This document shows positions 32,387 through 39,595 of a DNA stretch of 64,000 nucleotides, piece by piece; position 1 is the first letter of the stretch, and each line of letters opens with the position of its first letter. The notes beneath the pieces were generated by a model that saw only the letters and a program-made list of their open reading frames with translations, was not told the DNA's origin and ran no database searches. The stretch lies in NCBI GenBank assembly GCA_022766945.1, contig JALEOU010000044.1, positions 1 through 64,000 of the forward strand. The letters are read 5' to 3'. Source of the DNA: Fusicatenibacter sp. (GTDB taxonomy: Bacteria; Bacillota; Clostridia; Lachnospirales; Lachnospiraceae). The position numbers and the translations under genes are program-made.

Positions 32387-34087
32387 TCATTCATTCAGTT
32401 GTTCCCAGATCCCGTTTTCTTCAAATCTGGCTGCCGCTTTTTTTGCTCCTTCTACAATTTCTCTTTCGTATCCCATGACAGAAAGCAGTGCGATTGCATT
32501 TCTTCCCACTGCTCTGCCTTCTTTCAAAAGATAGTCGAACTCCACATCCTGATCCGTTACCTTTTCTTCAAAATGGTAATTTGTGTACAGTTCTTCCAGA
32601 ATATAGGTCAGCTCAATATCATGCGTGGCCGCGAAACAGAGTACCTGTGGTTTGCGAAGGCTGAAAAGTACCTGTGAGGATGCAGCGATTCGTTCTACGG
32701 TATTGGTACCGCGGAAGACTTCATCGATTACACAAAGCAGCGGTTCTTTTTTCCTGCTTTGATCAAGGATTCTTTTCACTGATCGTATTTCCACAATGTA
32801 GTAACTTTCTCCATTTTCAATATCATCGCGAAGAGCCATAGATGTCATTACCCTGCACATCACGCTTTGGTAAGAATGGGACAGACTGGTATCAATGGAT
32901 TGCGCAAGAATCGCGTTTAATGCCACACTCTTCAAAAAGGTCGATTTTCCAGAAGCATTGGAACCGGTAATCAGGATTCCTCTTTTCGCACAGATACTGT
33001 TCGCTACAGGTTCCATAAGCAGCGGATGATACAGATCCTCCAGATCCATCACAAATTCTTCTATTCTGCCATTTGAAACATATTCCGGTATGCAATAAAA
33101 AGGAAGAGATTTTCGATACGAGGCAACGGATATGGCAAAATCAAGCACTCCGATATCGCTGATCATCTGCGTTAAAGTATTGCTGTTCTGCTTCAGATCC
33201 CGGATCACAGAATAAAAGGAAATAAAATCGAAAAGGAAAAATGTATTAAAGTAAGAAGAAAGCATACTGGCAAGATCCCCATCCATTCCTCTTGTATGAA
33301 TCAAAGTAATGCATTTTTTCCTGATTCCGCGCATTTTTCTACTTTCTACTTGAAGACGCAAAAGATAATCAGATAGTTCCGGTATTTCCATTTTTCCAAG
33401 TTTCCCGGCTGTCCGCAAAATCCTCAGAACACACATAAGACTCTTCAAACAGGCATCAATCCTGCCGGATTCCCTGCTGTGCACAATCACATTGATCGTC
33501 AGAAAGCTTATAAACACCATCATTCCAATAGCAGGCCAGACAAAAAGAAATGCAATTCCAACAAGCGCGGATGCAGACAGAAAAAAGTATTTCTTTCTGC
33601 TTCTTTTCGGAACATTTCGAATCGCATCGATATAATCAGAGATCGAATAGCCATAAATTCTTCCAATCCCATCCAGTGCTTCCTGTACCAAAACACGTTC
33701 TTTTTCATGACAGTCAAAATAGGAGATCAGGCGTTCTCGTTCGTTTAATACGGTTTCGTCAAGCTCTGGCATTCGGAGAGCACAATAGAGGTATTCATCT
33801 CCACACGCTGACATACTGTGGTTTATTTTTTGATAAACCAGATCCATATTCAAATCATTCCATGTAATGTCATCTATACTCAGGCTTTCCCCATATTTTC
33901 GTCTCGCATAATCCGCCATACAGGCAAGCTCTTCTGCCTGATACTCCCTGTGGGGTATCGTACCCCACAGGTCAACGATTCGTTTGCGACGACGCTTCTT
34001 TTGACTGTGGTTTTCTCTTATCATCAGAACCATAGCTGCTGCGATCAGAACCGCAACTGGCAGTATTTCCTGATATCCTGTATCCAT
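32387..34087 (-). CDS. MutS-family ATPase (MutS domain V) with N-terminal membrane segments
   Basis: GILITGSNASGKSTFLKSVALNAILAQS Walker A and CVIDEVFRGTNTVERIAAS; hydrophobic AVLIAAAMVLMI and LVGIAFLFVWPAIGMMVFISF. Confidence 0.9.
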   Translation of the reverse strand: MDTGYQEILPVAVLIAAAMVLMIRENHSQKKRRRKRIVDLWGTIPHREYQAEELACMADYARRKYGESLSIDDITWNDLNMDLVYQKINHSMSACGDEYLYCALRMPELDETVLNERERLISYFDCHEKERVLVQEALDGIGRIYGYSISDYIDAIRNVPKRSRKKYFFLSASALVGIAFLFVWPAIGMMVFISFLTINVIVHSRESGRIDACLKSLMCVLRILRTAGKLGKMEIPELSDYLLRLQVESRKMRGIRKKCITLIHTRGMDGDLASMLSSYFNTFFLFDFISFYSVIRDLKQNSNTLTQMISDIGVLDFAISVASYRKSLPFYCIPEYVSNGRIEEFVMDLEDLYHPLLMEPVANSICAKRGILITGSNASGKSTFLKSVALNAILAQSIDTSLSHSYQSVMCRVMTSMALRDDIENGESYYIVEIRSVKRILDQSRKKEPLLCVIDEVFRGTNTVERIAASSQVLFSLRKPQVLCFAATHDIELTYILEELYTNYHFEEKVTDQDVEFDYLLKEGRAVGRNAIALLSVMGYEREIVEGAKKAAARFEENGIWEQLNE

Positions 34088-34168: not shown

Positions 34169-36802
34169 TTAACTGCTACCTGAATTATCCGAAACAGGGA
34201 TTTCATTAATCACAATATCATTGTGAGAATAATCGTCATACCGATACCTGTGGTTTTCAAACAGAACTCTGGTCCCTTTCGCGTTTATGCTTAAATCCGC
34301 TGTGACAAGAAATATGTCTTCTGCATTTTTTCCATATTCCGGTACTTCCATGTTTTGTATGCTTACATTCTCCGTTCCTGTCACGCTGATGACACCGTAT
34401 CGGTTAACATTCCATTCTGATATTTCATAAGAAGTTCCAAATGGAATTCCCTGGAGTGTTTTTTCCATTATCACGGAACCATCTTTTTCTGTATGGCTAT
34501 TTACATATTGCGCGTCAAACAGAAAAACCATTTGATATTCATGATCATTCCCCCAGAGGTCCTTACCTTTAACCGTCAAAATAAATGTGGGATTGCCATG
34601 CGACCAGACAATTTCGTCTGTCATGATTTTCTTGGCCAGTGTAATCTCCGCCAAAGGAGGATCTTCCATGCAGATGCTCTGTAACTCACCCGTTTCCAGA
34701 ACTTCGAATTTCATCGGTTCTGCTTTCATATAACCCTCCGGAGCACTGATCTCTTCCAGCAGATATCTTCCGGCAGCAATATGGTTGAAACGCAACGGTT
34801 CCTCATCGCTGATCCATTCGCAAATCAGATTGCCGTCCTCATCTGTCAGACGGAGCTGTGCGCCGGATAACAGCTTTTGAGAAACGCTGTTCTTTTTTGA
34901 GATTGCGAGCTTTATAAAATCATTTTCCACCTCAATGACTCCGTCTGTTGCTTCCGCACACACTCCATATTGATCAACAGTAAATTGTCTGACCGTTGTA
35001 TCGGTCACATAACCGGATGGCGCCTGAATTTCCTTGTAGCAATAAGTTCCCGTTGCCAGGCCAGTGAGTACGGCTCTTCCATCGGATCCCGTAACAATAC
35101 GAATCTGTTCTTCCGGATATTCCTGATTCCAGTACAAAAACACAGCACCGGAAAGACTCAGAGTTGCTTCTTCACCTTCTGCCTTTTTTCCTGTCTTATG
35201 GATGATAATCTGATTTTTCTGATCCTCAAAAGAAACCTCTTTTGTCACAAGCAGGGTATCTGCATCTTTCCACGAAAGTGTCACTTCTTTTCTCTCGTCA
35301 TTCAAAAGATAACCGTTGGATGGCCGTATCTCCTGGACCATATACGTTCCATAATCCAGTTCCGATGAAACCGCCACACCATTTTGGGTGGTGATTGTGT
35401 CTGCAACATCACCTTTCTTATAGATTTGCTGTCCGTCCGGAGTGCTGATATCCTCGCCTGCAATTATCTGAAAGACAGTTCCTGAAAGAGGTTCCTTCGT
35501 ATCTGCATCCGTCTTTTTTACCGTGATCTTGCCCTTTCCGCGCTGATTTGTTACCCGGAAAAGGATCGTTTCGGTTCCTGGCTCATCAACAACAAATTCC
35601 TGTGTCCAGTTTCCCACATACCCTGTCGGAACTTCCTCTTCGACTTTAAATTTTCCCTGATTCTGTTCTGTATATTCCAGATTATATCTGCAATATCTCC
35701 CAGTCTCTTCTTCCCAGTCCAGAAAACCAGCAAAATCCCAGGCAGAACCGTTCCACTCATAAAGCTCAAACTTAACATTTCGAAGGAGCAGACCGCTTTT
35801 GGCATCTGTCTTTTCGATGATCAGGTCTGCCTTTTTCGTAAACTGGCACATAATCTCAGAAGTATAACCAAACTCACAGGTCATCCACGCCAGGACGTCT
35901 CCGCCTTTTGTGTCATAAATTCCTTTCCATCTTTTCATCTCATTATCATTTTCCCAATTATTATAGTCGATCCGATGATAATAGATGCCTTCCGGGTTTT
36001 TATCGCCGTTGACAAATGTGAGGGTCTGGCTTTCTCCTTTGTATGTATAAGTAACCCAGCCATTGGGATTCTTCGGTGAAGTTTCGCTTCCGTCTGACCA
36101 GATAATTCCGGTTTTCTCCTCATATCCCATTCTTGCCATGGCAGCCTGATTGAAATAGATATTTTCAATCTGATCATGAACCTGAAATCCCTGATAAAAA
36201 TCCAGATCCGAAAGCGTAAAATGGCCTTCCAACGATACGGGCTGCATACGATCATCAAAATAGGAAAAGCGTACGGTAACAGACAAAAGACCCTTGATAT
36301 CAATAACCGGTTTATTGTCATCCACAGAGACAATCACACTGGTGTAAGAATCATCGGGAAGGTTCTGATGTTTCTCCCAGTCCAGAAGCGTAATCCGAAG
36401 ATTGATCTGTTTTCCCTGATAAACCCCTACATTCGTATAGTCAACATACATCTTCCCTTTACGTTCATCAGCCGCAATAAAAGAACGGGTGTTACTCCAC
36501 GCTGTGATATCCGCCTGCTTCCACCAGGTGGATATAATCTGCGCCTCCTGTTGTCCGTATACACAAAAATCATTATCCCAGTTCTCGGAAAAACATATTT
36601 CTGTCTGACTCGTAATAATCGGACTAAACTGGTAATACCCGTCGATCATATCTGTTTCCGAAACAAGAATCCCATTTGACATACTATCCAGAGAATCATA
36701 GTTTGCAGCTGCAACTACAGCCTGCGCGAAAAGCAGACGGATCAGGATAAGAATGATTGCCAGGGGAACTATTTTCCAAAGCCTTTTCAAAAAATCTGTC
36801 AT
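34169..36802 (-). CDS. SpaA/prealbumin-like multi-domain surface protein, N-terminal TM, no C-terminal LPxTG
   Basis: Repeated ITVKKTDADTKEPLSGTVFQI / IIHKTGKK...LSGAVF / LAISKKNSVSQKLLSGAQLRL and EIxAPxGY motifs; start chosen at MTDFLKRLWK. Confidence 0.85.
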   Translation of the reverse strand: MTDFLKRLWKIVPLAIILILIRLLFAQAVVAAANYDSLDSMSNGILVSETDMIDGYYQFSPIITSQTEICFSENWDNDFCVYGQQEAQIISTWWKQADITAWSNTRSFIAADERKGKMYVDYTNVGVYQGKQINLRITLLDWEKHQNLPDDSYTSVIVSVDDNKPVIDIKGLLSVTVRFSYFDDRMQPVSLEGHFTLSDLDFYQGFQVHDQIENIYFNQAAMARMGYEEKTGIIWSDGSETSPKNPNGWVTYTYKGESQTLTFVNGDKNPEGIYYHRIDYNNWENDNEMKRWKGIYDTKGGDVLAWMTCEFGYTSEIMCQFTKKADLIIEKTDAKSGLLLRNVKFELYEWNGSAWDFAGFLDWEEETGRYCRYNLEYTEQNQGKFKVEEEVPTGYVGNWTQEFVVDEPGTETILFRVTNQRGKGKITVKKTDADTKEPLSGTVFQIIAGEDISTPDGQQIYKKGDVADTITTQNGVAVSSELDYGTYMVQEIRPSNGYLLNDERKEVTLSWKDADTLLVTKEVSFEDQKNQIIIHKTGKKAEGEEATLSLSGAVFLYWNQEYPEEQIRIVTGSDGRAVLTGLATGTYCYKEIQAPSGYVTDTTVRQFTVDQYGVCAEATDGVIEVENDFIKLAISKKNSVSQKLLSGAQLRLTDEDGNLICEWISDEEPLRFNHIAAGRYLLEEISAPEGYMKAEPMKFEVLETGELQSICMEDPPLAEITLAKKIMTDEIVWSHGNPTFILTVKGKDLWGNDHEYQMVFLFDAQYVNSHTEKDGSVIMEKTLQGIPFGTSYEISEWNVNRYGVISVTGTENVSIQNMEVPEYGKNAEDIFLVTADLSINAKGTRVLFENHRYRYDDYSHNDIVINEIPVSDNSGSS

Positions 36803-36803
36803 C

Positions 36804-37931
36804 TTATTTCCTCCTCTTCCGGTTTCCCTTCTCACCCAGTACAGCGAAAAGGAAAACAGCACCAACTGCTGTGAGCAGCCACAGAACTACATTCTGTCCG
36901 TCTCCCGTCACAGGTCCAAAGACTTTCGATGGAAGTTCTTCAAATCTGGCAGAGAAAATCCATTTTTCATCCGTCTGGGCCATGGCATATTCATTTTTCA
37001 TGTCCTCAGGTACCAAAAGAATAAATTTCATGCTCTTATCGCAACCGGGTTCAAAGACACCAAGGCTGATTTCCTGTTGTAATTCCGCTGATCTTAAGCT
37101 TCCCTGATATACCTGTTTTCCATCCAGTTCAATGATAAGCTGTATCTTCTGCGATAAATCTCCGGAATTTTCACCTGCTTTGGTCGAAAAAAAGAGTTCC
37201 GTCTCTGTTTTTGATGGATTCTGTATCCGAACGGTATCGCTGACCAGATCACCCGGCATCAACAGACCAAAATTTGCGAAAAAATCTTCCGGTAATGCCA
37301 CCAGTTCCGAGGCATCTTCTTTCAGTTCCACATTCAGATTCTGATAGTTCCTGTTGATCGTCACCGATTCTCCCGATTTATGAATACAAACCTCCGGTTC
37401 ATAGCTGCCCCACGGATCTGAGCTATCAAAATCCGGTGTGAAATTAGCAGACTGAATTGCCTCAGCCGTGATATTGAGTAAAAATCTTTTCTCAGCTTCT
37501 GTTTCCGTCCAGTCAGAAGGAATCTTTACCTCACGGAAAAGATCAATTGATTCTCCTTCTTCCAGCGGCTTCCTATAGTAATAATACTCTCCCTGTAAAA
37601 TCCAGATTGCAGTATTGATATCACATTCCACTTCAGAATGGGAGGTTATTTCACTTTGGTCAAGCGCAACCTTCACTCGCACATAACACGGCATTGCAAG
37701 ATTGGTGATCCTGGGTATTTTCGAAATCGTTTCTGACGGCAGCACAATTCTCTCCGATTCCCCATAGGTCGTACCAGCTCTTGTCAATTCTTCCAGAGAA
37801 ATATTCACATCTCCAATTGACAGATGGTTCTGTACTTCCACGCTGGTATTCCGGTATGCAAAAACTGCAATTGTTCCACTAAAAAGTAGGAAAACAAGCA
37901 ACATCAAACTTACGATTCCTTTATGTCTCAT
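36804..37931 (-). CDS. TasA/camelysin-like surface protein with PVTG-type sorting signal and TM tail
   Basis: N-term signal IAVFAYRNTSVEVQNHLSIGDVNISLEE; C-term FGPVTGDGQNVVLWLLTAVGAVFLFAVLGEKGNRKRRK. Confidence 0.75.
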   Translation of the reverse strand: MRHKGIVSLMLLVFLLFSGTIAVFAYRNTSVEVQNHLSIGDVNISLEELTRAGTTYGESERIVLPSETISKIPRITNLAMPCYVRVKVALDQSEITSHSEVECDINTAIWILQGEYYYYRKPLEEGESIDLFREVKIPSDWTETEAEKRFLLNITAEAIQSANFTPDFDSSDPWGSYEPEVCIHKSGESVTINRNYQNLNVELKEDASELVALPEDFFANFGLLMPGDLVSDTVRIQNPSKTETELFFSTKAGENSGDLSQKIQLIIELDGKQVYQGSLRSAELQQEISLGVFEPGCDKSMKFILLVPEDMKNEYAMAQTDEKWIFSARFEELPSKVFGPVTGDGQNVVLWLLTAVGAVFLFAVLGEKGNRKRRK

Positions 37932-38496
37932 CAGGCATCACCTCACTTTTTTCTTTTCCCTCATAAAAATTCCAGGCTGCCTGATAATTTTCAAAAGGAA
38001 TTCCCTCGTGTTCTGCCTGCACCGACTCTTCATAGCAGATCACTTTCCGCGTGTCCTGCGAGCTGTTTTTCATCCCTTCACCGTCATAATGAATACCGGA
38101 AAACAAAGGCGTTGTTGCTTCCCCGGACGACAGCGGAGTTAGATAATAGAAAAATCCATCCTGACCATCCACCCAGTGCTCCAGATCCACATCTGTGAGT
38201 GTAAATCCCTCTCCTGCGTCACTGCCCTCAAACACAACTGCCATTCGGACATAACAAATTACCCCGGTCTGGTTCCTTACAGAAGCAGATTTTAAGATAT
38301 CAGATGGTTTTTCCGGATCCAACGGATCAGGAGTTGGAAATTCTTCTTCGATCTCTGTTGTAATGCAGCCCACAGTAAAACGGTTCTGCAGTTTCTCGGA
38401 ATCCGTGAAAAAAGCACCTGTCATATTCACAGTGAACAAAGCTGACATGAGCATCAGTCCGGCTGCTGCAATCAAGGCTTTTCCTGCCTTTTTCAA
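37921..38496 (-). CDS. SipW-dependent-type (TasA/CalY-like) secreted protein
   Basis: LFTVNMTGAFFTDSEKLQNRFTVGCITTEIEEEF resembles the xxAYFTDxxxxxNxFTVGxVxIxxxE pattern. Confidence 0.78.
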   Translation of the reverse strand: MKKAGKALIAAAGLMLMSALFTVNMTGAFFTDSEKLQNRFTVGCITTEIEEEFPTPDPLDPEKPSDILKSASVRNQTGVICYVRMAVVFEGSDAGEGFTLTDVDLEHWVDGQDGFFYYLTPLSSGEATTPLFSGIHYDGEGMKNSSQDTRKVICYEESVQAEHEGIPFENYQAAWNFYEGKEKSEVMPDET

Positions 38497-38510
38497 TCTC
38501 TGTACTCCTT

Positions 38511-39224
38511 TCAGTCAATTCCTGCAGTTACTGCTCCTTCTAATCCTTCGTTCTGCATGTAGTATTTTTCCCACGCTGAAATGGCCTGATCACGAACGCT
38601 TCCGGTTCCATCAGAAGTGTTCACTGTCTGAATTGCATAAGAACGTACCGGTATCTCCAACTGTACTTCATCCATCTGCCCTTCCACGATGTTCGCAAAT
38701 CGTACACTGGTAAAGAGCGGTTTTGTGGATTCTCCCGGACTTAATATGGAATCATAATTATACACATAAACCATATAATCTCCTGTCTTTTTCTGATACA
38801 TCAGATTCCAGCCATCCATCTGATCCTGGGCCGACAGCTGAACGCCCTCCAGAGAAAAAAGCTCCGTTTCTGCTGCAGCACCATTGTTCTCTCTTGTTCC
38901 ATCCTCTGCAGCAGTCACAACATTTGCCATGGGAATTGAGACATCCATATAAACAAATGCGTCATTTTTCCCCACGTTAGTCAGCAGAGGGTTTTTGGGA
39001 ATTTCCTGTCCGGGCACGATATCCGGTGTTTTTCCTTCTTCATCCGGTTGATAATCCGGTTCTGTCTCTTCTATATCCACTTTTCCAACCACAAATTTAT
39101 TCTGCACTTCCTCGTGATCAGTAAGATAAGCAAGTGTTCCTCCTGAAATTCCGATGGCACATGCCGCCACGAGTGCTGCTGCTATCACCAGGTTCTCTTT
39201 TTTGCTATTCCAAAATTTTCTCAT
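38511..39224 (-). CDS. SipW-dependent-type (TasA/CalY-like) secreted protein
   Basis: CAIGISGGTLAYLTDHEEVQNKFVVGKVDIEETEPD SipW-type signal. Confidence 0.82.
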   Translation of the reverse strand: MRKFWNSKKENLVIAAALVAACAIGISGGTLAYLTDHEEVQNKFVVGKVDIEETEPDYQPDEEGKTPDIVPGQEIPKNPLLTNVGKNDAFVYMDVSIPMANVVTAAEDGTRENNGAAAETELFSLEGVQLSAQDQMDGWNLMYQKKTGDYMVYVYNYDSILSPGESTKPLFTSVRFANIVEGQMDEVQLEIPVRSYAIQTVNTSDGTGSVRDQAISAWEKYYMQNEGLEGAVTAGID

Positions 39225-39390
39225 AGTTATGTTCTCCTTTTGTACTCTTTCACTGTTTTATTCTAAATGCCTGTTCGTTCTCCCGTAAACAGGGTCAAAC
39301 AAATGATTCTTATGGGAAGCAAAAGAACACAAAAATAAGAGGATCTCTCTCATTCCTCCGTACCATCAGCATAAATATGACATTTCCACC

Positions 39391-39412
39391 AGTATGTCCT
39401 GCACGACATACT
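39391..39412. repeat. Perfect inverted repeat upstream of the surface cassette
   Basis: AGTATGTC-CTGCAC-GACATACT. Confidence 0.8.
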
Positions 39413-39431
39413 TTCAATCATCCTGGAAATC

Positions 39432-39449
39432 AGCCGGAGAATACCGGCT
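39432..39449. repeat. Perfect inverted repeat upstream of the surface cassette
   Basis: AGCCGG-AGAATA-CCGGCT. Confidence 0.75.
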
Positions 39450-39498
39450 CATGGGAAATTACCCTTAGGGTAAAAATGATTCTGTAAAAAGTAATTAA

Positions 39499-39517
39499 AG
39501 CCTACCACAGGCAGGCT
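39499..39517 (-). terminator. Intrinsic terminator of the cobT-cob-amidohydrolase operon
   Basis: Minus strand AGCCTGCC-TGT-GGTAGGCT followed by TTAATTACTTTTT. Confidence 0.75.
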
Positions 39518-39595
39518 CTAATTTCAAGATCCATTTTATAAATTTTTTCTAAATTCAAAACCAGATGCTGCTGTTTCCCTGGAAAAAACCGGTTT

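Follow-up and report, generated by a model that had tools for sequence, protein, structure and literature searches.

How could a cassette of four genes that seems to encode a surface fiber be put to use when neither a SipW-type signal peptidase nor a sortase is encoded beside it? This question is raised by a 64,000-nucleotide stretch of Fusicatenibacter sp. DNA (contig JALEOU010000044.1, positions 1 to 64,000; the whole stretch is referred to here as the window), which corresponds to contig C79 of genome G000 (3.19 Mb, 99.6% complete). By its named relatives, this genome falls within the genus Fusicatenibacter (Lachnospiraceae) or beside it. The first-pass annotation of the window, made from its letters, had proposed that four minus-strand open reading frames (ORFs) encode a pilus or amyloid-like fiber assembled with enzymes supplied in trans. 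We hold with moderate confidence that these genes, designated A to D, form an operon for a SipW-dependent surface fiber of the TasA/BsaA type with a wall anchor and an adhesin, and that its enzymes are supplied in trans. The features of the cassette are as follows (aa, amino acids).

38511-39224, minus strand: gene A, 237 aa, TasA/BsaA-like with a SipW-type signal peptide; likely the major fiber subunit.
37921-38496, minus strand: gene B, 191 aa, TTG start, a BsaA-family SipW-dependent protein; likely a second fiber subunit.
36804-37931, minus strand: gene C, 375 aa, with a SipW-type N terminus, two beta domains, and a C-terminal sorting signal; likely the wall-anchored base of the fiber.
36804-36917, minus strand: sorting signal of C, consisting of GPVTGD, a hydrophobic stretch, and KGNRKRRK.
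34169-36802, minus strand: gene D, 877 aa from an ATG, a secreted CnaB/SpaA adhesin without an anchor; likely a tip or side adhesin.
34643-35839, minus strand: four SpaA/CnaB modules of D, with isopeptide triads.
34172-34267, minus strand: conserved C-terminal segment of D (FENHRYRYDDYSHNDIVINEIPV...), a candidate docking strand.

The four ORFs, which had been described as nearly contiguous, are all present and intact between 34169 and 39224. A and B are separated by 14 bp, B and C overlap by 11 bp, and 1 bp separates C from D. Because of these tight gaps and the overlap, together with Shine-Dalgarno-like sequences, cotranscription of all four is very likely. A TTG listed as a start for D (36865) falls within C and is without support, and the ATG start was taken.

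The nature of the fiber is suggested by A and B. Protein A matched Pfam family PF12389 over residues 14 to 89 (27.3 bits; cutoff, 22.5) and the NCBIfam SipW-type signal family TIGR04088 (32 bits; cutoff, 19). For TIGR04090, the BsaA family (cutoff, 60), A and B both scored below the cutoff, with 37.8 and 32.5 bits, respectively; the B orthologs of congeners scored above it (60.9 to 77.9 bits). By these profile matches, A and B are TasA/BsaA relatives, and for this reason a fiber is the best reading of the cassette. TasA/CalY-like N-terminal signals had been claimed for A, B, and C alike. The claim is borne out for A by the TIGR04088 score and in weaker form for B and C, whose signals are still recognizable; the window version of C has a degenerate signal (AYRNTSVEVQNHLSIG), congeners have a clearer one (AYYQDSVSVQNHISTG), and one C ortholog (locus L057) scored 20.1 bits against TIGR04088, above the cutoff of 19. 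The secretion of BsaA depends on SipW, and BsaA polymers are independent of the neighboring SrtB (PMC7395162), while TasA polymerizes through N-terminal donor strands (PMC9674648).

Protein C carries the candidate anchor. The ending noted earlier for this protein, PVTGD followed by a transmembrane segment and KGNRKRRK, was read directly in the sequence as GPVTGD...KGNRKRRK. Homologs of C align over their full length and share the SipW-type N terminus, the two beta domains, and a sorting signal in which TG is conserved. Eight Fusicatenibacter cassettes have an srtB of their own, and in these the motif is APKTGL (7 of 8) or APKTGV (1 of 8; locus L136). The two cassettes without srtB in the window genome and its sister have GPVTGD and GPATGD, respectively, and other cassettes lacking srtB have VKTGD, SPKTGD, VSTGD, VDTGD, or degenerate motifs. 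The type of SrtB and the motif therefore covary, with APKTG[L/V] beside a dedicated srtB and GPVTGD/GPATGD where there is none. SrtB of Clostridioides difficile cleaves (S/P)PXTG, with SDSPKTGDN as the assay peptide (PMC4155245). A scan of G000 for PxTGD codons gave 41 matches, compared to 27 in a reversed control, and among the 40 matches besides C, a hydrophobic stretch and a basic tail come after only one, SPQTGD (C84:10676). This outcome is consistent with a class B signal on C, although G lies outside the preference published for P4. The SPQTGD match belongs to a second protein of this genome (L168, C84:10616-10890), which ends in SPQTGD, a transmembrane segment, and RQKRRIK, a classic clostridial SrtB signal.

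Several results, most of them on C, weigh against an anchored TasA-type fiber. Position P4 before PxTG is G in the window and the sister and A in the congeners with their own srtB, with no S or P. Outside Fusicatenibacter, C often has VKTGD as its motif, with degenerate forms (VKTSD and AKTED) in some cases, and may therefore simply be a membrane protein in some of those species. PDB profile searches with A and C returned no relative. The AlphaFold2 model of C, the only TasA-like protein modeled, is of middling confidence (mean predicted local distance difference test score [pLDDT], 72; residues 19 to 42 below 50); other beta-sandwich proteins ranked highest among its fold matches, and TasA and CalY were not among the best 50 matches of this moderate-confidence model. 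Window C had no Pfam or NCBIfam match as a whole protein, and its domains likewise had no Pfam match. The Foldseek search with the same model lists the WxL-interacting protein (WxLIP) of Enterococcus faecium (9i1y and 9i25; probability, 0.98 to 0.99). This raises the alternative that there is no long fiber and that C, bound to the membrane or the wall, acts as a two-domain receptor in the manner of the enterococcal WxLIPs and keeps A, B, and D together in a compact complex at the surface, an arrangement that would agree with those C homologs that have a degenerate sorting motif but retain the transmembrane segment. However, the TM-scores of the WxLIP matches are low (0.2 to 0.3), the model is only moderately confident, and A and B are in families whose studied members polymerize. 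We consider such a complex unlikely.

Protein D differs from the other three in its domain content. It has four SpaA domains (PF17802; Pfam, E = 2e-52), and the search for isopeptide triads recommended by the first-pass annotation found Lys-Glu-Asn/Asp triads in all four: K331-E388-N419, K430-E491-D527, K536-E591-N627, and K636-E684-D714. The Lys and Glu columns are invariant in 8/8 congeneric D proteins, and the last residue is N or D. The description of D as a SpaA-type protein without LPxTG was upheld, but its N-terminal hydrophobic stretch, taken earlier for a transmembrane anchor, is more likely to be a signal peptide that is cleaved off because of AxA sites and homologs with KPxEAAAGY. 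The N-terminal domain (about 300 aa) and the C-terminal domain matched no Pfam family. In the latter, F848, N850, D856, H860, and N866 are invariant in 14 D proteins from Fusicatenibacter, Blautia, and related cassettes. The model of D (mean pLDDT, 79) matched the folds of a Bacillus anthracis TIE protein and ancillary pilins (6fwv and 4oq1), probably by way of the CnaB stack. Cys80 in the N-terminal domain is invariant, and a thioester was considered on account of this residue and the TIE match; it was set aside because the region is modeled at a pLDDT below 50 and eight further Cys residues occur in D. By its sequence, D looks like a secreted, nonanchored adhesin.

We then turn to where the processing enzymes are encoded. 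As reported earlier, neither a SipW peptidase nor a sortase gene lies in the window, and remnants of sipW or srtB searched for in the window were not found. The genome search proposed for these enzymes yielded one SipW-type peptidase above the family cutoff (C58:47479-48000, equivalent to L014:7480-8001; TIGR02228, 102 bits; SGSMEP and THR motifs), flanked by an AMP-ligase gene on one side and polysaccharide biosynthesis genes on the other, and three sortases, one on contig C5 and two on C13. The C5 sortase belongs to class B (TIGR03064, 175 bits; cutoff, 153.75). The sister genome (G203) has an orphan SipW at the same syntenic site (L117:6525-7034), away from its cassette. Since both enzymes, a SipW and a sortase of class B, are encoded elsewhere in the genome and are found in cis in congeners, their supply in trans is well supported by gene content. 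In the SipW tree, the enzyme of the window lineage clusters with SipWs from TasA-type loci of other kinds (support, 86/88). A relocated copy of the cassette enzyme was rejected by the approximately unbiased (AU) test (P = 0.003 against grouping with the cassette SipWs of congeners), and in terms of phylogeny, the C58 SipW is a non-orthologous stand-in for the cassette SipW.

Contig C13 carries a separate class C sortase pilus cluster (L011:8353-18682) with a signal peptidase and proteins of 1,881 aa (LPQTG), 502 aa (LPSTG), and 331 aa (LPQTG). A class C sortase in the genome, and SpaA/CnaB modules in D like those of pilins and ancillary adhesins, would allow the cassette to be read as a conventional SpaA-type pilus polymerized by the C13 enzymes. 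However, direct reading of the sequences revealed no sorting signal, LPxTG included, in A, B, or D, so that the major subunit lacks LPxTG; there is no class C sortase in the window, the C13 class C gene has its own cluster with LPxTG pilins, and the cassettes of congeners have class B rather than class C sortases. The conventional pilus is very improbable and was rejected. Of the fiber originally proposed, the supply of enzymes in trans is accordingly retained and a fiber is still the best reading, but not one in the form of a sortase-polymerized pilus.

Comparison of the neighborhood across relatives, also suggested earlier, showed that the site is conserved. In congeners, the order is cob genes, an amidohydrolase gene, sipW-A-B-C-D-srtB, and a MutS-like gene, with flanks shared with the window; in one of them (L136, genome G200), srtB separates C from D. 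In the window genome and the sister (locus L116), A to D occupy the same site, and both enzyme genes, sipW and srtB, are missing from it; the other half of the L116 locus is closely matched by L132. In more distant Lachnospiraceae, including Blautia, the sampled region mostly has sipW with A to D but lacks srtB. Because sipW is present in most outgroup cassettes, its loss from the cassette site in the window lineage is the better-supported direction. In the C tree, the C proteins of the window and sister fall outside the srtB-bearing clade, with a poorly supported backbone. Dependence on SipW is further suggested by co-occurrence in a sample of 200 Lachnospiraceae genomes. Gene A was present in 28 genomes, all of which have SipW, compared to 35 of the 172 A-less genomes (Fisher P = 5e-17). 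Gene C was present in 26, 25 of them SipW positive and 1 SipW negative (86% complete, with a weak match; P = 1e-13). The distance from SipW to A or C is no more than 10 kb in 25/31 genomes, with the window genome among the six exceptions.

The absence of sipW and srtB from the site in two related species, along with the degenerate signal of C in the window, could also indicate a decaying relic whose proteins are no longer properly exported without the adjacent enzymes. However, the reading frames are intact, the promoter and ribosome-binding sites are kept, SipW and SrtB are encoded elsewhere in the genome, and the ratio of nonsynonymous to synonymous substitution rates (dN/dS) between the window and the sister is low, at about 0.08 to 0.23 (approximate values, with dS near or above 1). 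Judged by these ratios, the cassette is under purifying selection and not decaying, and on the low dN/dS, the relic reading, which we regard as improbable, was rejected. Paralogous sipW-A-B-C-D-srtB cassettes occur in two congeners, three in G204 (L120, L121, and L122) and two in G202 (L118 and L119), and A has long acidic low-complexity tails in these multicassette genomes.

The SipW-dependent fiber that we favor would be assembled as follows. A, B, and C, with the signals described above, would be exported by Sec and cut by the SipW-type signal peptidase. The freed N termini (xYLTDxxxxxNxFxVG) would serve as donor strands as in TasA, and A and B would polymerize without a sortase. C shares the N-terminal segment and could form the base of the fiber, with a class B sortase attaching it to the wall through its GPVTGD, transmembrane segment, and basic tail. 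D would be cut by an ordinary signal peptidase and be carried on the fiber as a rigid, isopeptide-stabilized adhesin, perhaps through its conserved C-terminal segment. The C58 SipW, from another lineage, and the conserved C5 SrtB are both present in the genome and would serve the cassette in trans. The most detailed form of this proposal, a hybrid fiber with a donor-strand TasA/BsaA-like polymer, a base fixed by SrtB on peptidoglycan, and a CnaB adhesin docked by its C-terminal strand, in which a non-orthologous SipW in trans replaced the dedicated peptidase and the motif suits the conserved SrtB, is put forward tentatively.

Each part of the proposed fiber has a counterpart in a known system. 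In sipW-bsaABCRSD of Clostridium perfringens (PMC7395162), as in the congeners, sipW accompanies SipW-dependent small secreted TIGR04090 proteins and accessory secreted proteins, and a sortase gene adjoins sipW there too. In contrast, the cassette described here has a sorting signal on C, the CnaB adhesin D in the operon, no two-component genes, and, in the window, sipW in trans. The SipW-type signals are shared with tapA-sipW-tasA of Bacillus subtilis (PMC9674648, PMC10151520), where the mature N terminus of TasA is the donor strand and the accessory protein TapA is thought to start and anchor the fiber, the role that we propose for C. However, TapA is not described as sortase anchored, that system has no SpaA/CnaB protein, and the similarity is mostly N terminal. 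The TasA-CalY-CapP filaments of Bacillus cereus (PMC13082335) likewise combine two TasA-like subunits with a third SipW-processed, wall-located protein, but they are described as sortase independent and have no CnaB adhesin. Clostridial SrtB anchoring at (S/P)PXTG (PMC4155245, PMC5118464) is matched by the xPxTGD, transmembrane segment, and basic tail of C and by the class B sortase in the genome, although P4 of C, a predicted substrate, is G and not S/P. D resembles CnaB/TIE-type adhesins and ancillary pilins (6fwv and 4oq1) in having a distinct N-terminal domain followed by a stack of isopeptide CnaB modules, but it lacks any sorting signal.

SipW, TasA/BsaA subunits, the CnaB adhesin, and the class B sortase are thus known parts; what is new is how they are combined and that related species differ in having the enzymes in cis or in trans. 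The literature searched, which mostly excludes subscription journals, yielded no paper on this cassette. TasA/BsaA fibers are regarded as sortase-independent matrix fibers and sortase pili as a separate world. The cassette unites traits of both in common gut commensals, Fusicatenibacter and Blautia, in which the machinery for biofilms and adhesion has received little study. Because some species naturally have dedicated enzymes in cis and others have them in trans, the specificity of SipW and SrtB can be tested directly, using matched substrates and enzymes of harmless species.

Two further features lie upstream of A.

39499-39527, minus strand: putative operon promoter, TTGAAA-N17-TAGGCT with an extended -10 element (TGG), in a layout common to congener loci.
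39330-39448, minus strand: structured 5' leader, with hairpins at 39433-39448 and 39391-39412 and then a terminator-like hairpin at 39330-39359.

Seven loci (the window, L116, L133, L136, L137, L138, and L139) have the same promoter layout ahead of their first cassette gene, and in the window the promoter therefore stands directly before A. The leader (39330-39490) is shared by the window and L116, with paired changes in the two hairpins, followed by the terminator-like hairpin; in a scan of the leaders, the latter was scored also in L134 and in no others. The cassette region, leader included, had no match in Rfam. From its predicted folding, attenuation or riboswitch-like control by the leader is possible.

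On the other side of the cassette, a gene for a MutS-like ATPase (32387-34087, minus strand) adjoins it in most congeners. This protein scores far below the MutS1 and MutS2 cutoffs, and the window and L057 versions are 47% identical, compared to about 70 to 84% for the other flanking genes.

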